Positions 3,288 to 32,574 of a stretch of DNA of 35,406 nucleotides are shown one piece after another. Below the pieces are notes generated by a model. That model ran no database searches. It saw nothing but the letters and a program-made list of their open reading frames with translations, and had not been told where the DNA came from. Where the stretch lies: the NCBI RefSeq assembly GCF_947169325.1, contig NZ_CAMVPN010000018.1:1-35406 (forward strand), read 5' to 3'. This stretch comes from an uncultured Methanobrevibacter sp. (GTDB lineage: Archaea > Methanobacteriota > Methanobacteria > Methanobacteriales > Methanobacteriaceae). Numbering within the stretch: the stretch's first letter is position 1; every line of letters begins with the position of its first letter. The position numbers and the translations under genes are program-made.

Positions 3288-4220
3288 TTAAATCGGATCA
3301 ATAATTCCTTTTTCAGTGATTATGCCTGTAATCAACTCCTTTGGAGTTATGTCAAAAGCAGGGTTTATGACTTCGGTTCCTTCAGGACAAATCCTTGCTC
3401 CTCCGTAGTACCTTACTTCATCACCATCCCTCTCTTCAATGATAGTATCATAAATGTTAATGTCATTGTCAAAGGTTGAGTAAGGAGCCGCCACATAAAA
3501 CGGAATGTCATGGTGTTTTGCGGCAAGCGCCACCATAAATGAACCCACCTTGTTTACGACACCCCCTTTTGCAATCCTGTCTGCACCTATGACCACCTTA
3601 TCGATTTTTCCCCGTGACATGAGAAATCCTGATGCGACATCAGGAATCAGTTTTACCGGAATGTTTTCCTGCTGCATTTCCCATACACTGAGGCTTGCTC
3701 CCTGACCGCGAGGACGGGTTTCATCACAGATTACATTTATGTTTTTGCCGGCGTCACGTGCGGCCCTGATTACTCCTAAAGCAGTTCCATAATCAACACA
3801 TGCGAGAGCTCCTGCATTGCAGTGTGTTAAAATTGTATCGCCATCGTCAATGACTTCAGCACCGTACTTTCCGATTGCCCTGTTTGTTGCCATGTCCTCT
3901 TCATACATCTTCAATGCTTCACTAAGTGCATCATCATCACTTTCAAGCACTCTGTCAACTGCCCAGAACAGATTAACAGCTGTAGGTCTTGCGGCCTTAA
4001 TTTCCATTCCAGCTTTTTCCAAATCTACACCCTCAAGTTCGGCAAGCGCCAGCCCAAAAGCGGCAGACACTCCAATCGCTGGTGCTCCACGGACAGTCAT
4101 GTTTTTAATTGCAACTATTACATCCTGATAGTCCTCACAGTATACATAGGTTAACTCATCAGGAAGCTTTCTTTGATCAATAAGTTTTAATTTGTTGTCT
4201 TCCCATTCAAGTGTTTTCAT
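3288..4220 (-). CDS. mtnA: S-methyl-5-thioribose-1-phosphate isomerase (eIF2B-like)
   Basis: Converts methylthioribose-1-phosphate to methylthioribulose-1-phosphate in methionine salvage. The family hallmarks are in order: RGAPAIG (44-50), THCNAGALAC with the catalytic Cys at 134, CDETRPRGQGA (165-175), and VVIGADRIAKGG with the catalytic Asp at 214. At 310 residues it is slightly shorter than bacterial MtnA. The RGAPAIG and CNAGALAC signatures favour MtnA over the related ribose-1,5-bisphosphate isomerases, although archaeal members can act on other 5-deoxypentose phosphates. A GGTG ribosome binding site lies about 7 bases before the ATG. A 241-base gap separates it from ppaC, so it probably has its own promoter. 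Confidence 0.85.
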   Translation of the reverse strand: MKTLEWEDNKLKLIDQRKLPDELTYVYCEDYQDVIVAIKNMTVRGAPAIGVSAAFGLALAELEGVDLEKAGMEIKAARPTAVNLFWAVDRVLESDDDALSEALKMYEEDMATNRAIGKYGAEVIDDGDTILTHCNAGALACVDYGTALGVIRAARDAGKNINVICDETRPRGQGASLSVWEMQQENIPVKLIPDVASGFLMSRGKIDKVVIGADRIAKGGVVNKVGSFMVALAAKHHDIPFYVAAPYSTFDNDINIYDTIIEERDGDEVRYYGGARICPEGTEVINPAFDITPKELITGIITEKGIIDPI

Positions 4221-25363: not shown

Positions 25364-26479
25364 TTATTTGATATAATTTATTTTGTATTTGCAATTAATA
25401 TTTTTTATTATTTCAATGATTTTTTCCTCAAGCTCCGAAATATTTGAAAAATCATATGTGACCTGTTTGCCGTCGAAGATTATCCTTTTAATATATTGAC
25501 CGCAGACATCATCAAAACCACTTTCGACTTCAAAGATGACAGAATCTTTAACCTTGAATCCATCTGCTACAACCTTGTCCAAATCACCATCAGTTATTCC
25601 CACCACAGGTATATCAAACCGATACAAAATGTCAGAAGATATCAATGTCGTATCATCACCGATTGTGATAACCACACTGGAGTCCCTGAACCTGTAAACA
25701 TCCTCGCCTGCATGGTCCAAAAATGCTACCTTAAATTCTTCAGGCTTTTGCTTATCCAAAACCCGTGGCTTGACTTTTGCATTCCTCAAAAGACCTGTTT
25801 TGATAATTGCAGTCTCAAGGTCGACTTCACCCAGCTTTTCAAGGCCATGTTCCTTAAGTTTTCCGCCGACAATGTCGACTATATGATTGTCTTTAGCTAT
25901 TAAAATCAGCTTATCGGAGTCTGTTCTGCCAATGACAACACTGTTGACCATTATATTCTCACCTGGGCTCACCCCATGAACGATTCTTTGGTTGACTCCC
26001 GCATCATCCTGCCTGATGTGATTGTCATAGACCTCTTCGGGAGTTACAACGGCCAAACCCAACCTTTCGGAGAGTTCATTGACGATGTCCAAATCACAGT
26101 TCCAGGCAATGATGCTTCCATCGCATTCACCTGGACGTTCAATCTGAATAACCGGAACGTTATTGTCAGAAATCTTATCGGTGAAATGGCTGTAAACCTT
26201 ATATCCGAATACCTGACCGGTCACATCGGATTTTCCATAGTTCAAAAGAAAGATCACGTCAACGCCATCATCATAAAATATCTTTATGGAATCGCTTGGA
26301 ACCAGCTTGCGTGAAATGTCGATGACATCTTCCAGACTCGCATCTATGACTGCTGTTCTTCCCATAGTTCCGCCCAGCCTTGCTGAAACCTCACCATATT
26401 CCCCAAGCAATTCTATAAGTTTCAATGCATAACCGGAATCGATTATGTTGGGTCCGTGAACAACCACTCCAATCCTCAT
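25364..26479 (-). CDS. DUF2117-type conserved archaeal protein
   Basis: 371 residues, no signal peptide or TM segment. MRIGVVVHGPNIIDSGYALK opens a nucleotide-binding-like domain with RLGGTMGRTAVIDAS. A central part, MVNSVVIGRTDSDKLILIAK, is followed by a second alpha/beta domain (VVITIGDDTTLISSDILYRF, then DIPVVGITDGDLDKV). Known as a methanogen hypothetical protein; no reaction can be assigned. I chose the ATG at 26479, which overlaps the nob1 stop as ATGA, over the longer frame at 26521 that lies wholly inside nob1. Confidence 0.72.
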   Translation of the reverse strand: MRIGVVVHGPNIIDSGYALKLIELLGEYGEVSARLGGTMGRTAVIDASLEDVIDISRKLVPSDSIKIFYDDGVDVIFLLNYGKSDVTGQVFGYKVYSHFTDKISDNNVPVIQIERPGECDGSIIAWNCDLDIVNELSERLGLAVVTPEEVYDNHIRQDDAGVNQRIVHGVSPGENIMVNSVVIGRTDSDKLILIAKDNHIVDIVGGKLKEHGLEKLGEVDLETAIIKTGLLRNAKVKPRVLDKQKPEEFKVAFLDHAGEDVYRFRDSSVVITIGDDTTLISSDILYRFDIPVVGITDGDLDKVVADGFKVKDSVIFEVESGFDDVCGQYIKRIIFDGKQVTYDFSNISELEEKIIEIIKNINCKYKINYIK

Positions 26480-26982
26480 TTGTTCACCCTGATTCGTTTC
26501 TTGAATATTCTGGAACCGCAAATTTCACAGTCATCAAACGGATAGTCCTCACCATATTCCTTCTTGCATCCTTCACAAACCTTCTTCCAGTTGTATATTC
26601 CTCTGATTCCTTTGGTCATTACCCCAGAATATGGGATTTCCATGATTTTTGAAGTGTTCTGGATTGTATAATCGTCACTGATCAGCTTCACATTTTCACC
26701 CCGTTGCATCAGCATGTATGCCAGTGAAATCAGCTTAACGTCCTGTGAGGACAATCTCAGGACATCCCCGCTTTTGGAGATTATTTCACCAACCTCATCA
26801 ATGTAGACTTGAGGAACGTCTTCGATAACCAGCAGTCCCTCATTTACGGCACTGTCAAATTTTAACCGTGATTCGAAATCCTTGATTTCGGCGGTGATTT
26901 CAGGAACAGTGCAATTCCTTTTTGAAGTAATTTGAAATCCATTTATAAAAGCCGATGCGTCCAATACATAACAAATTTCCAT
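26476..26982 (-). CDS. nob1: Nob1-like rRNA endonuclease (PIN domain plus zinc ribbon)
   Basis: 168 residues. The PIN domain starts YVLDASAFINGF (catalytic D8), with RLSSQDVKLISLAYML (acidic residue) and LISDDYTIQN (third acidic cluster). The C-terminal zinc ribbon has CEGCKKEYGEDYPFDDCEIC (two CxxC). Nob1 cuts the 3' end of pre-16S rRNA during small-subunit maturation. I chose the ATG at 26982 (MEICYVLDAS); an in-frame ATG at 27000 would add six residues. No ribosome binding site is adjacent, but a strong one lies further up in front of a tiny open frame at 27006-27023. First gene of its operon. Confidence 0.87.
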   Translation of the reverse strand: MEICYVLDASAFINGFQITSKRNCTVPEITAEIKDFESRLKFDSAVNEGLLVIEDVPQVYIDEVGEIISKSGDVLRLSSQDVKLISLAYMLMQRGENVKLISDDYTIQNTSKIMEIPYSGVMTKGIRGIYNWKKVCEGCKKEYGEDYPFDDCEICGSRIFKKRIRVNK

Positions 26983-27005
26983 GATGAATATTTTAATCAT
27001 GAAAA

Positions 27006-27023
27006 TTAATAAATCTTAGCCAT
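27006..27023 (-). other. Five-codon mini-ORF (MAKIY) with a strong ribosome binding site, upstream of nob1
   Basis: On the minus strand GAGGAGGTG (27041-27033) is followed after 9 bases by ATGGCTAAGATTTATTAA. The stop lies 5 bases before an ATG (27000) in frame with nob1. It could be a leader peptide feeding reinitiation at nob1, or a degenerate former start. The ribosome binding site is among the best in the window, yet no long frame uses it. Confidence 0.35.
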
Positions 27024-27050
27024 TAAAATTCACACCTCCTCAAAAATTTG

Positions 27051-27182
27051 TTGGTAGACATTTGGGAGAGAGTTGGGAGAAAGTTGGGAGAGAGTTGGGA
27101 GGAACTTGGGAGAGTTTTGGAATAAGATTGGGAGAGTTTTGGAACAGAATTTGGAGACATTTGGGAGACTTTTGGAAAAATC
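27051..27182 (+). repeat. Twelve 11-bp phased repeats (TTGGGAGAGnn)
   Basis: TTGG or TTGGG recurs at 27051, 27062, 27073, 27084, 27095, 27106, 27117, 27128, 27139, 27150/27151, 27161 and 27172, an exact 11-base pitch. The best units read TTGGGAGAGAG; units 1, 7, 9, 10 and 12 are degenerate. The array is purine-rich on the plus strand and lies in the divergent gap between the nob1 operon and a regulator operon. It ends 2 bases before TATTTAAATATAT (27183-27195), the probable TATA box of the regulator genes. All units face the same side of the helix, as expected for cooperative binding of one protein. No coding function is supported. Confidence 0.85.
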
Positions 27183-27265
27183 TATTTAAATATATGTAGC
27201 AAAATGAGATATTACCGAAAATTCATGGGGTTTTTACAAGAATTTTCATATAATATAAAAAAAGG

Positions 27266-28066
27266 ATGATGATGAAAATGTACGTTAACAATGGAATAAA
27301 CGATGAAATACGATTTCTTGCACAATCCGAAATCCGACTAAAAATTCTCAGCGAACTTAACAAACGCCCGGATAACGTGAGAGGGCTTGTAAAAGAGACA
27401 AAGATAACCTACAGTTCCGTGTCAAGCAATGTCTCAAAGCTGGAGGAGAACAACTACATCAGAAAATTCAACGGAAAATATTACATTGACCCTATGGCAA
27501 GAATCTATTTTAAAACACTTATGGATTTCAAGAAAAGCATTGAAATCATTAAGGATTTTCACTCATTTTGGTATAAGCACAATCTTGGACAGATGAGCAT
27601 CAATTCAATGAGAAACATCAATGATTTGAAAAACTCAAAACTGATTGAAACCACACCCCTGGACATCTACAAAACACACACAACAATCAAAAATCAGCTG
27701 TTCAACTCAAAAGATGTAAAGGCAATTTTTCCATATCTTCATCCGGAATATCCTAAACTGCTTGAAAGGATATTGAAAAACGGAGGTTCCATCGAGTTAA
27801 TCCTCCCAAGAGAGATAACTAGCGCCATAATGAGACCTATCGATGAAACCTTAAAGAAAAATTCCATCAAGAAAGGGAAATTAAAAATTAGAACAGTTAA
27901 AGAAGATTTAAACTTGTATTTAACAATTTGCGATAAAAGTATGAGTTTAGGACTCTTTAAGACCGACGGAAGCTTTGATCAGAATAGGATTCTAGTGTCA
28001 AAAGATGAAAAATCTTGCCAGTGGGCGGAAGAATTATTTGAATATGTCAAGGACAAGGTGATATGA
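27266..28066 (+). CDS. FilR1-like winged-helix regulator (first of three)
   Basis: 266 residues as given; clustered in-frame ATGs at 27266, 27269, 27272 and 27278 leave the exact start open, and AAAGGATGAT suits 27278 best. The N-terminal ArsR-type winged helix (about 15-75) has SEIRLKILSELNKRPDNVRG and TYSSVSSNVSKLEENNYIRK. The C-terminal part (about 100-266), with VKAIFPYLHPEYPKLLERIL and SIELILPREI, is the DUF1724/FilR1 effector domain of methanogen regulators. The 11-bp repeat array and a TATA box lie directly upstream, making it the prime candidate to bind them. Its stop overlaps the next gene by 4 bases. Confidence 0.85.
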   Translation: MMMKMYVNNGINDEIRFLAQSEIRLKILSELNKRPDNVRGLVKETKITYSSVSSNVSKLEENNYIRKFNGKYYIDPMARIYFKTLMDFKKSIEIIKDFHSFWYKHNLGQMSINSMRNINDLKNSKLIETTPLDIYKTHTTIKNQLFNSKDVKAIFPYLHPEYPKLLERILKNGGSIELILPREITSAIMRPIDETLKKNSIKKGKLKIRTVKEDLNLYLTICDKSMSLGLFKTDGSFDQNRILVSKDEKSCQWAEELFEYVKDKVI

Positions 28067-28863
28067 TGACCAACCCAAAAACCAAAAAAGAATTAAATAA
28101 AGAGTTCAAAGATATAAAGTATATACTTACTTCAAGCATGAGAACAAAATTGCTTTTGGCAATATATGATGTTCCCATGAACTTGGATGAGTTAAGGGGT
28201 GTTTTAAAAAAACCCTCCGCCACCATATTACATGGTTTAAAGGAACTGGAAGCTATCAATTTAGTCAGAAAGTCACAAAAATACTATGAATTAACTTCAA
28301 ACGGATATTTGCTGACTACTAATATGATTAAACTGATAGATAATTGGTATTCCCTCAGCAAAAGTGAGATATTTTGGAATAACCATGACCTTTCAGATAT
28401 TCCTGAGGAGATAATTAGGGACATTTACCTTCTAAAAGACGCAGAATACATCAGTTCAACAACAAGCGACCTATCAATCGCTTTCAACAAATACATAAAA
28501 TTAATTTCAAAAGCTAAAGAACTAACAATACTACTACCAATCTACTCCGAAAATCATTTCAAGCACATGATTGTGTTTTTGAATGAAGGTAAACTTGAAA
28601 AATTGGATCTGATTGTTAGTGAGGAAATATACAATTCAATTCAAAGGAATGAATTGTTCAAAAGAGATTTGCTTGAAAATGAAAAAGTGAACACCATCGT
28701 CACTTCCAAAAGATTTAAAATATTTCTGACCTACTCCGAGCGGTTCATGTCTTTAACATTATTTTTTAAGGACGGACATTATGACGATTCCCACATTTTA
28801 ATCGCCAAAGATGATGACGCCAGAAAATGGGCATTGTCTTTAATAAATTCATTTCAAGGGTGA
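28063..28863 (+). CDS. FilR1-like winged-helix regulator (second of three)
   Basis: 266 residues, a diverged paralogue of the preceding gene with the same layout: a winged helix at about 20-80 (SSMRTKLLLAIYDVPMNLDE, then SATILHGLKELEAINLVRKS), and a FilR1 domain from about 110 with ELTILLPIYSENHFKHMIVF and FKIFLTYSERFMSLTLFFKD. The ATGATG start overlaps the previous stop, and its own TGA overlaps a GTG start, so the three regulators are translationally coupled. The two FilR1 proteins may work as a heterodimer (inference). Confidence 0.85.
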   Translation: MMTNPKTKKELNKEFKDIKYILTSSMRTKLLLAIYDVPMNLDELRGVLKKPSATILHGLKELEAINLVRKSQKYYELTSNGYLLTTNMIKLIDNWYSLSKSEIFWNNHDLSDIPEEIIRDIYLLKDAEYISSTTSDLSIAFNKYIKLISKAKELTILLPIYSENHFKHMIVFLNEGKLEKLDLIVSEEIYNSIQRNELFKRDLLENEKVNTIVTSKRFKIFLTYSERFMSLTLFFKDGHYDDSHILIAKDDDARKWALSLINSFQG

Positions 28864-29201: not shown

Positions 29202-29708
29202 ATGAAAAGCGAAACTTCAAGACAACATCAAAAAGAATCTTCAAATGACATCACTTGTGGAGTTATTACTCTCAGTGACAGCAGAAAATCAAAAAAAGCA
29301 GATTTGTCTGGCCAGTATATGGTTGAAGAAATCGAATCACGTTACACATTAAAATCAAGGAGTCTCATACCTGATAATGAAGACGAATTGTTAAATGCCA
29401 TTGAAAATATGGTAAATGATGATGTTGACGTTATTCTAACAACCGGCGGTACCGGGCTCGATCCACGCGACATTACTGTTGAAACCGTGGAAGCTATTTT
29501 TGAAAAAAGATTGGATGGTTTCGGTGAGCTTTTCAGAAGAAAATCATATGAAGAAATAGGTGCTGCGGCATTGCTCTCAAGAGCAACAGCAGGCGTTTAT
29601 AAAAAAAGTATTATCTTTTCAATGCCTGGCTCCCCAAATGCAGTGAAAACCGCATTAGGATTAATAATCGATGAGCTTCCGCATTACGTGCACCACGTAA
29701 AAAAATAA
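29202..29708 (+). CDS. moaB: Molybdenum cofactor biosynthesis protein MoaB/MogA family
   Basis: 168 residues. Adenylylates molybdopterin before metal insertion, for molybdenum or tungsten enzymes such as formylmethanofuran dehydrogenase. CGVITLSDSR, ADLSGQYMVEEI, LTTGGTGLDPRDITVE (the MPT-binding TTGGTG loop) and SMPGSPNAVKTAL are all present. AGGGAC precedes the ATG, 12 bases after the third regulator, so it is probably the last gene of that operon. This hints that the regulators respond to Mo/W supply or methanogenesis demand. Confidence 0.92.
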   Translation: MKSETSRQHQKESSNDITCGVITLSDSRKSKKADLSGQYMVEEIESRYTLKSRSLIPDNEDELLNAIENMVNDDVDVILTTGGTGLDPRDITVETVEAIFEKRLDGFGELFRRKSYEEIGAAALLSRATAGVYKKSIIFSMPGSPNAVKTALGLIIDELPHYVHHVKK

Positions 29709-30641: not shown

Positions 30642-30680
30642 CAAAATAAGAAAAATTAGTAGATGCAATAAACATCTACT
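30642..30680 (-). terminator. Terminator hairpin containing the adhesin stop codon
   Basis: AGTAGATG (30658-30665) pairs with CATCTACT (30673-30680) over a 7-base loop. The stop codon (30676-30678) lies in the stem. On the minus strand AATTTTTCTTATTTTG follows. The layout and the CATCTA stem match the terminator at 8836-8875 of the other Ig-tailed surface gene. Confidence 0.55.
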
Positions 30681-32574
30681 TACAATTAATATTCACTTTT
30701 TTTGTAACTTTATTGTAGCACTCATTGCCGCCGTATGTAATTGTTGCCTTAAAATTACCTTTTTTTGTTAATTTAGTAATTCTAAATGTTGCAACACCTT
30801 TTTTATTTGTTTTAGCAATGAATGTTTTCTTATTGACTTTTATTGTGACTTTAGTGTTTTTCATGACTTCATTTTGATTGGTTTTTAAAGTTACAGAATA
30901 TTTTTTAGTTTTTAGAGATTTTTTAAATGTTTTTGATTTAGCAGTTAATTTTGGAGTTGATTTTTTAACAGTTACTTTAACATATACTGCAAATTCATCA
31001 TAAGTAATTGATAAAGTATATTTTTTTGGGGATAAATCATCTGTTGATACTTTAATCTGACCTTTTTTATCTGTGACCAGAATTAATGTTTTAACATTTA
31101 AAAATTTAACAGTGACCTTAACCCCCTTAACAAGATTTCCATATTCATCTTTTAAAGTTGCAACCACATATTTCCCTCCGTTATAAACAGTAGTAACACT
31201 GGAAGGAACAAAAATACTAAAAATCATTTGTTTATATACATTATCACCAGAAATACTTGCCTTATTATCTTTAAAGAAGGAATTTAAATTCTGTCCTTTA
31301 TAATTATAAACATAGAGGATTGCACCACCATAATCCGCACGGTTACTAATGAAAGAACAATTCACACAAAAACCATTCAACAATGCACCCCCATAATCTG
31401 CATGGTTACTAATGAAAGAACAATTCACACAGGAACAATCAGAAACTGCACCCCCATAATCTGCATGGTTACTAATGAAAGAACAATTCACACAGGAACA
31501 ATCAGAAACTGCGCCACCAACGAAAGCATAGTTATTAACAAAAGAACAATTCACAGCAAAATATTCCTCGGAATATGAATCAAAACCCCATGGGCCATAG
31601 ATTGCACCACCGTTAACTGCATGGTTACTAATGAAAGAACAATTCACACAAGAACCATAAAACATCGCACCACCATAATGCGCGGAATTATTTATAAAAT
31701 TACAATTCACAGCACAATACTCTTTAGAATATGGATCAAAATTATATGGCCCATAGATAGCACCCCCCGAATCAGCAGCAGAATTATTTATAAAAGTACA
31801 ATTTACAGGATCGGCACCAATGCCAGAAGGATTATATATTGCACCACCATAATGCACTGCAGAATTATTTATAAAAGTACAATTAGTAGAAGAACCATAT
31901 CCCAATGCACCACCATAATGCGCTGAATTATTTATAAAAGTACAATTAGTAGAAGAACCATCTTCCAATGCACCACCATTATAATTCGCACTGTTATTAA
32001 TAAAAGTACAATTCACACAAGAACATCCCCCATAAATAGCACCACCACTATAATTCGCACTGTTATTAATAAAAGTACAATTCACACAAGAACATCCACC
32101 ACAAATAGCTCCACCATTACCTGATTTACCGTTCACAAAGACAATATCATGGAACACAGCATCAGAATCACCAACAATAAAAATACGAGCAACACCATCA
32201 CCATTAATAGTAAATCCATTTCCCCAAACAGTCACGCCACGAGAAATACTTATACCCTGTTTAAAATCATCATCGGATTTAATATCAAAAGTATAAGTAC
32301 TATCCAAATAGATATCATCATCCACATTACCATTAATAACATTATTCAAATCAGTGAAAGTTTTTGAAGTTGTTTTAATAGATTCATCATTTGAATTTTG
32401 ATAAATTAAATTATCAGAAACCGACTTATCTACACTAACTAAATTATCATCAACAGTTATTTCTTCTCCAACAATTTCATTGGTATGGTTTAAATCATTG
32501 GCATTTACAGAAGAAATAATGCCTAAACCAATTATTAGAAATAATAATATAATTATTAAATTTTTTTTATACAC
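30676..32574 (-). CDS. Adhesin-like secreted protein with Pmp-type beta-helix repeats and Ig-like tail
   Basis: 632 residues, intact. The signal peptide (MYKKNLIIILLFLIIGLGII, then SSVNA) is followed by a variable linker. A beta-helix from about 95 to 440 has roughly a dozen repeats of the type CVNCTFINNSAxYxGGA. Two Ig-like domains (about 445-632) rich in Lys, Thr and Val end in KVNINC. There is no cell-wall anchor motif I recognise. Expected to be exported and held at the pseudomurein surface, binding host, bacterial or protozoal partners (family knowledge, not shown here). Several repeats are nearly identical at DNA level. The promoter region (32575-32640) is AT-rich with GGGGGAG upstream of the ATG. 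Confidence 0.85.
   Translation of the reverse strand: MYKKNLIIILLFLIIGLGIISSVNANDLNHTNEIVGEEITVDDNLVSVDKSVSDNLIYQNSNDESIKTTSKTFTDLNNVINGNVDDDIYLDSTYTFDIKSDDDFKQGISISRGVTVWGNGFTINGDGVARIFIVGDSDAVFHDIVFVNGKSGNGGAICGGCSCVNCTFINNSANYSGGAIYGGCSCVNCTFINNSANYNGGALEDGSSTNCTFINNSAHYGGALGYGSSTNCTFINNSAVHYGGAIYNPSGIGADPVNCTFINNSAADSGGAIYGPYNFDPYSKEYCAVNCNFINNSAHYGGAMFYGSCVNCSFISNHAVNGGAIYGPWGFDSYSEEYFAVNCSFVNNYAFVGGAVSDCSCVNCSFISNHADYGGAVSDCSCVNCSFISNHADYGGALLNGFCVNCSFISNRADYGGAILYVYNYKGQNLNSFFKDNKASISGDNVYKQMIFSIFVPSSVTTVYNGGKYVVATLKDEYGNLVKGVKVTVKFLNVKTLILVTDKKGQIKVSTDDLSPKKYTLSITYDEFAVYVKVTVKKSTPKLTAKSKTFKKSLKTKKYSVTLKTNQNEVMKNTKVTIKVNKKTFIAKTNKKGVATFRITKLTKKGNFKATITYGGNECYNKVTKKVNINCK
31384..31509 (-). 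repeat. Two identical 63-bp coding repeats inside the adhesin
   Basis: The segment 31384-31446 is repeated base for base at 31447-31509 (21 codons, encoding FISNHADYGGAVSDCSCVNCS-type turns). Related units of 63 to 69 bases continue on both sides, for example about 31982 and 32051. They keep the reading frame, so copy number could change by recombination without breaking the gene. Confidence 0.75.

Follow-up and report, generated by a model that had tools for sequence, protein, structure and literature searches.

A TATA-registered array of 11-bp direct repeats at a regulator operon of Methanobrevibacter, a probable cooperative operator

The window analysed here, a stretch of 35,406 nucleotides from an uncultured Methanobrevibacter species, contains a run of short direct repeats immediately upstream of an operon of predicted transcription regulators. 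The features on which the following analysis is based are these:

26476..26982, minus strand: nob1-like PIN-domain gene, the divergent neighbour in most relatives (start chosen in this analysis)
27050..27181, plus strand: array of twelve 11-bp units (TTTGGGAGAGA / TTTGGAATAAG-like), with unit -3 shifted by +1
27171..27182, plus strand: promoter-proximal unit -1, TTTGGAAAAATC, overlapping the BRE position
27183..27192, plus strand: regulator-operon TATA box, TATTTAAATA, its register to the array fixed genus-wide
27266..28066, plus strand: reg1, FilR1-like regulator with an ArsR-type wHTH and a FilR1_middle domain
28063..28863, plus strand: reg2, the other FilR1-like regulator, with PSATILHG as its recognition helix
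28827..29189, plus strand: reg3, small winged-helix protein of ArsR-like type, with an uncertain start and conservation beginning near residue 29
29202..29708, plus strand: MoaB-like protein, closing gene of the conserved operon

These neighbours agree with an earlier reading made from the sequence alone (hereafter the sequence-only reading). The FilR1_middle domain was recovered in both reg1 (E 7e-26) and reg2 (E 1e-16), the small wHTH protein and the MoaB-like protein follow, and the divergent side encodes the PIN-domain protein, a DUF2117 protein and methanogenesis marker 2. The window's own copy of reg3 gave weak Pfam matches only. The order of the operon is reg1-reg2-reg3-moaB, and 43 of the 59 named loci have all four genes grouped together. 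Elsewhere in the window (30676-32574) a large surface-protein-like ORF contains several overlapping tandem repeats of 63, 69 and 156 bases.

Within 27051-27175 the motif TTGG occurs twelve times, starting at 27051, 27062, 27073, 27084, 27095, 27106, 27117, 27128, 27139, 27151, 27161 and 27172, in units that are for the most part TTGGGAGAG or TTGGAATAAG-like. The sequence-only reading had spoken of twelve exactly 11-bp repeats; the twelve copies and the absence of net slip stand, but the spacings, eight of 11 bases followed by 12, 10 and 11, are not all exact. TTTGGAAAAAT, the final unit, reaches to 27181, and the TATA box starts at 27183. Compared with itself at a lag of 11, the array has an identity of 0.70; dinucleotide shuffles averaged 0.305 (sd 0.044), and not one of 5000 matched the array's self-similarity at lags of 7 to 19. 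Tandem Repeats Finder called the array as well. A scan of the 2.6-Mb assembly to which the window belongs (93% complete) with the pattern TTGG-N7-TTGG-N7-TTGG gave seven matches, every one within the array, and none with the reversed control pattern. A four-unit profile likewise gave matches below E 1e-4 only at the array, the next best having an E-value of 0.14; a second such array was found in this assembly by neither the spaced-pattern nor the profile scan.

The sequence-only reading had further proposed that the array may control transcription in both directions. This part of the proposal is less well supported, because in five loci (L169, L170, L172, L175 and L179) nob1 is more than 1 kb off or was not found within 3 kb, and the array is retained at the regulator promoter. 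It is accordingly the regulator promoter to which the array belongs, and control of the divergent nob1 gene was rejected as a necessary role. On the nob1 side a promoter at window positions 27003-27030 (minus strand) consists of TTTATTAA with a GCTAAG/GCCAAG-like flank; it can be made out by eye in numerous relatives, and the array unit is absent from it.

Of 67 genomes from the genus, 63 gave an ortholog of reg1; G017, G029, G035 and G074 did not. A recognisable TATA box is present in 62 of the 63 upstream regions under a relaxed TATA pattern, which recovered several loci with a TATA box that a stricter pattern missed, and 61 regions were scored, one locus (L061) having no promoter on its contig and another (L019) being too short. 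Among lags of 6 to 19, a lag of 11 was the best period in 58 of these 61 promoters, the exceptions being an array of four units, too short for the test window (L013), a locus with no array (L022) and one with two units (L059). Mean lag-11 identity was 0.62 in the orthologous promoters versus 0.33 in 23 control promoters, which belong to FilR1 paralogs and outgroup homologs; in this comparison the controls were cut at a set distance from their gene and were not TATA-anchored, whereas at orthologous loci with more than one TATA candidate the anchor was picked by the lag-11 fit. Lag 11 was best in none of the 23 controls, and with an array in none of these promoters the FilR1 paralogs and outgroup homologs were ruled out as users of the array.

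The expectation that the pitch would survive while the bases change was thus borne out, since the unit itself drifts from locus to locus: TTTGGAATAAG is replaced by TTTTGAAGAGA in L009, TACTGAACAGG in L012, TTTATGAGAGT in L057, TTGGAGGAAAA in L029 and L030, TTTTCAGGAAA in L023 and L025, and TTCAAAGAATA in L026. For the counts of unit -1, contrasts, helix types and accessory arrays, 11 TTCA-clade and 6 TTGA loci were classed by hand. Rule-based classing adds L014, L132 (G012) and L134 (G032) to the TTCA class and L058 and L131 (G020) to the TTGA class; L131, L132 and L134 have TTCA- or TTCC-like units, yet stand outside the TTCA-clade counts. In the TTCA-clade genome G013 (L247, L026) a TTCA array has about 24 units on one contig end, and the assembly breaks inside it because the array is so long. 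Among 38 TTGG-class loci, GG lies at the same phase to the TATA box in 22-27 loci at units -1, -2 and -4 to -7. At unit -3 it is in phase in 13 of the 38 and shifted by one base in 14, the window's own locus being one of the latter.

The promoter-proximal unit has a conservation of its own. Of 51 loci that do not belong to the TTCA clade, 46 have a TTTG(G)-type unit at this position (four have neither type and one has TTCA), and among the TTGG-class loci unit -1 is the most conserved unit (0.84). From the usual layout of archaeal promoters, TFB would be expected to contact the DNA here, and it is conceivable that the whole array consists of repeated BRE-like TFB contact sites which strengthen the promoter with no dedicated regulator. 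This would account for the position and the conservation of unit -1, but unit -1 is TTCA in all 11 TTCA-clade loci, switching along with the rest of the array, although within one genome TFB should recognise the same element at every promoter; moreover, the array is present at few promoters. We hence regard this explanation as extremely improbable.

Further arrays were sought by pattern and profile scans of the 67 genomes, and most genomes contained no additional such array at the thresholds used. Six profile matches with E-values of 1e-4 to 1e-2 (L197, L199, L202, L203, L204 and L206) lie seemingly inside coding sequence, look like chance and were discarded. Arrays also adjoin the TATA boxes of three unrelated accessory gene families. 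The first family encodes a protein of 51 aa with the pattern MxILxIxVLKxIIExVPEDYxIEF..., which has no match in the window's genome; its genes have a very short leader and varied surroundings, and one was seen by eye next to a terminase-like ORF. In 12 of its 13 closest loci lag 11 is best and the array abuts the TATA box in register with it, the remaining locus having no TATA box, and an array was found in none of 16 distant or fragmentary matches; these promoters are not independent because they are partly copies of one mobile cassette. The cassette, with its own 11-bp array and TATA box, is seen at L088-L096, L098, L110 and L111. The second family comprises DUF6932 genes, for which lag 11 is best in 13 of 16 promoters, three of these weakly (0.45). 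Degenerate 11-bp arrays stand at the TATA box in L211-L222 and L227, and several of the DUF6932 loci have another repeat family farther upstream, with GTAAAATTG-like motifs every 20-some bases. The third, a family of 315-aa proteins without a Pfam match above cut-off, has TTCA-type arrays upstream in G013, G021, G061 and G068. Of 30 examined loci from this family, which has many more copies, 26 could be placed, some with little upstream sequence; among the placed loci the array occurs in four of seven from the TTCA clade versus none of 19 from other genomes, leaving 22 of 26 without one. In G083 (L244) there is a further TTCA array with no clear downstream gene on the contig.

The distribution of unit types among these promoters is informative. 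TTGG/TTGA-type accessory arrays (51-aa and DUF6932 genes) were found in 19 of the 67 genomes and in none of the 11 TTCA-clade genomes, a hypergeometric probability of 0.018 if ancestry is ignored. Across the whole genus, matches to a four-unit TTCA pattern in promoter orientation are confined to the TTCA clade (11 genomes and G068), while seven matches in G002, G005 and G024 come from TGAA-type arrays read on the opposite strand. One exception to this matching of unit type and genome is G002, which is a TTGG genome but has a 51-aa promoter of the TTGA type. At unrelated promoters the unit type broadly follows the genome, which indicates a trans-acting reader and constitutes the strongest evidence for one.

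The same data bear on the possibility that the array is a functionless minisatellite that arose by slippage or unequal exchange, its pitch being kept by whole-unit duplication. Units within one array have an identity of 0.63, compared with 0.56-0.60 between orthologous units -2 to -6; since a unit resembles the others of its own array as closely as its orthologs in other species, the arrays undergo concerted evolution, in keeping with such an origin. Large TTGG tandems also exist in two genomes: in G090 (L068:2161-2600) 43 units with a 7-unit higher-order repeat lie between convergent genes with no adjacent promoter, and in G089 (L069:1362-1490 and 3594-4120) dozens of degenerate TTGG units lie near genes for small secreted-looking proteins, so that the unit can evidently also expand like a minisatellite. 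Nevertheless, unit -1 and the recurrent one-base offset at unit -3 (14/38) persist despite concerted evolution and diverged arrays keep their register to the TATA box. The placement of arrays at TATA boxes of unrelated genes, mostly with the type of the genome, and the want of any other such array in most genomes at the thresholds used also argue against a minisatellite, which we consider improbable as an explanation of the promoter arrays. An element of chromatin or curvature, in which A/T and G/C steps recur in phase and thereby bend the DNA or position archaeal histones, appears highly improbable. In its favor, TT and AA stand at the unit edges and GG at mid-unit in many relatives, but the window's own units are mostly AGAG-rich without A-tracts, and the TTGG pattern is strand-specific and found in its own genome at this promoter only. 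Furthermore, histone or curvature phasing is near 10-10.5, whereas the pitch of the array is 11.0. A periodicity of 11 bp has also been discussed as supercoiling-related (PMC3372288).

Among the proteins of the operon, the small wHTH protein reg3 is a better candidate reader than the two FilR1-like proteins, and we would put the chance that it is the reader at about even. In 56 of 56 genomes reg2 has the same recognition helix, and that of reg1 (TYSSVSSN) shows little variation, which speaks against either as reader of a unit that goes from TTGG to TTCA. In the recognition helix of reg3 positions 2, 4 and 8 are kept and positions 1, 3, 5 and 6 vary most, with DYKT accompanying mostly TTTGGAA, DYNT accompanying TTTTGAA and S/YYNT accompanying TTTTCA. 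Position 3 is K in 31 of 39 TTGG/other loci. DYN occurs in all six hand-classed TTTTGAA loci (six of seven if L058, which is TTGA by rule and carries K, is counted) and also in six of the 39 TTGG/other loci, and [SY]YN occurs in 11 of 11 TTCA loci. On a tree of reg1, reg2 and nob1, N replaces K in several separate lineages, some with a G fraction of zero.

The raw covariation of reg3 with the unit is confounded by shared ancestry, and an uncorrected column-by-column scan of reg1, reg2, reg3 and nob1 places its top column in reg1 (reg1 65). With independent contrasts, from which L059 and L067 were left out, reg3 N71 ranks 3 of 1271 for GG per unit and 9 of 1271 for G at position 4, with columns of reg2 and even of nob1 reaching similar values; for the single TTCA switch reg3 69/71 rank 319-535 of 1612. 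Partial Mantel tests (L131, L132 and L022 left out) give 0.45 for reg3, 0.29 for reg1 and 0.27 for reg2, a ranking that is weak because reg3 also evolves fastest. After correction for phylogeny, the covariation of reg3 with the unit is suggestive support for reg3 as the putative reader.

The occurrence of the genes provides a second line of comparison. The sequence-only reading had held that relatives with the same regulators and no array would count against it. Such relatives exist, but reg3 was found in none of them: G008 has both FilR1-like genes with reg3 missing and is the sole arrayless operon in the genus, and in M. olleyae-type reg1-reg2 pairs (34-42% identity) reg3, moaB and the array were all not found. 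Conversely, G012 retains a fading array although reg3 was not found there and reg1 has stops, and in G062 (L059) and L178 reg3 is present while the array is down to one or two units; the reg3 region of G032 falls in an assembly gap. The alternative that the operator is equally cooperative and is read by reg1 or reg2 appears rather unlikely to us. Their genes stand first in the operon, binding to its own promoter is described for the FilR1 of Methanosaeta (PMC3991700), reg1 65 is the strongest column of the uncorrected scan, and several reg2 columns, some of them in its HTH (46, 67 and 74), rank high with contrasts; against these points stand the nearly unchanging helices and the lack of an array beside distant reg1-reg2 pairs for which reg3 was not found. 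What the sequence-only reading had taken for a cooperative operator bound by the adjacent regulator therefore holds as far as the kept pitch and the broadly genome-matched unit type are concerned, but its choice of binder fits poorly with FilR1-like helices that hardly change.

Of 12 reg3 members, eight match HTH_5 (ArsR). A profile of the family searched against solved structures has 14 PDB matches, which include ArsR-type chains and AspA and no BldC; AspA is matched at E 2e-4 to 4e-4 and other wHTH chains at comparable or better E-values. The corresponding profile of reg1 had no match among solved structures.

Cooperative assemblies of wHTH proteins on repeats are already known, and several of them resemble the proposed system in part. 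In Streptomyces, BldC is a small protein consisting only of a wHTH, which forms cooperative head-to-tail multimers on promoter direct repeats of varying number (PMC5859096), and the present array likewise comprises tandem direct repeats in variable number at a target promoter. BldC is a bacterial protein with a MerR-like fold and 9-bp repeats of consensus AATTNNNN(C), with two and four repeats at the described sites (PMC5859096), whereas here the candidate is an ArsR-like wHTH, the pitch is 11 bp, the units number up to a dozen or more and their register to an archaeal TATA box is fixed. The domain and structure matches give no indication that reg3 is a MerR-like BldC homolog. AspA of the archaeal plasmid pNOB8 is, like the proposed reader, a small archaeal wHTH protein that binds upstream of its own gene, and it is reported to form a helical assembly that extends along 200 bp of DNA (PMC5120986). 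Unlike the situation here, it nucleates on one 23-bp palindrome and partitions the plasmid with ParB/ParA, and no direct-repeat array is described in the available part of its report (PMC5120986); neither parB nor parA follows reg3 in the reg1-reg2-reg3-moaB operon.

RdfS is an oligomeric wHTH protein that forms helical filaments with negative autoregulation, as proposed here, but is the excisionase of a bacterial ICE, with no consensus motif according to the accessible portion of the text (PMC11963761). The FilR1 of Methanosaeta harundinacea, after which the FilR1_middle domain found in reg1 and reg2 is named, binds to its own promoter and, unlike the present proteins, belongs to a two-component system (PMC3991700); a word search of the main text of that paper returned none of the terms 'direct repeat', 'inverted' and 'footprint'. 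For Stf76 of pSSVx, a 76-aa archaeal wHTH protein recognising its own promoter, only two sites are mentioned in the text available (PMC4027180). No parM-like match was found among the proteins scanned beside the array. Runs of 11-bp direct repeats are bound as a helical array, with autoregulation, in the ParR/parC system of plasmid R1, where the protein is of the RHH type and serves DNA segregation.

Taken together, we propose that the array is probably a multi-unit, cooperative direct-repeat operator through which the regulator operon autoregulates itself by overlap with the BRE. Each 11-bp unit would hold one protomer of a small DNA-binding protein, and the protomers would assemble head to tail on the DNA. 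The promoter-proximal unit would overlap the BRE directly upstream of the TATA box, and as the last unit sits at the BRE position the filled array should exclude TFB. By blocking TFB/TBP it would set transcription of the regulator operon, giving a steep negative autoregulation; recruitment of TFB/TBP by the filled array, and thereby activation, is possible and less likely than a block. Binding, polymerisation and repression at the array are here what we infer from the sequences. A pitch of 11 bp on DNA of 10.5 bp per turn implies a rotation of 17 degrees per unit and about 190 degrees across the array, and hence a protein chain that winds slowly round the DNA or underwinds it. Same-face spacing, as put forward in the sequence-only reading, consequently applies to neighbouring units but not to the array as a whole, unless the bound DNA is underwound.

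A more specific scenario, which we offer tentatively and with less than even confidence, is that in the Methanobrevibacter smithii group the operator is coded by its pitch. A small winged-helix protein may polymerise with one protomer per 11 bp, the pitch and the TATA register may be the conserved signal, and the unit may drift (TTGG to TTGA, ATGA and TTCA) as the protein and the arrays of a genome change together. Mobile or accessory genes (the 51-aa, DUF6932 and 315-aa families) with a roughly host-type array might in this way join the regulon. Among the matches listed for open-licence titles and abstracts, no genus-wide, TATA-registered 11-bp archaeal array with a co-drifting unit is described.

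In approximately 60 species a single regulator-operator pair occurs in natural variants, with a changed motif and a fixed geometry, and their arrays constitute a ready test of co-evolution between a cooperative DNA-protein filament and its sites. The genus includes the main methanogen of the human gut, and the array gives a predicted regulon for regulators that are otherwise unannotated. These observations point to a chain of DNA-binding proteins that may switch genes and that would have co-evolved with its sites.
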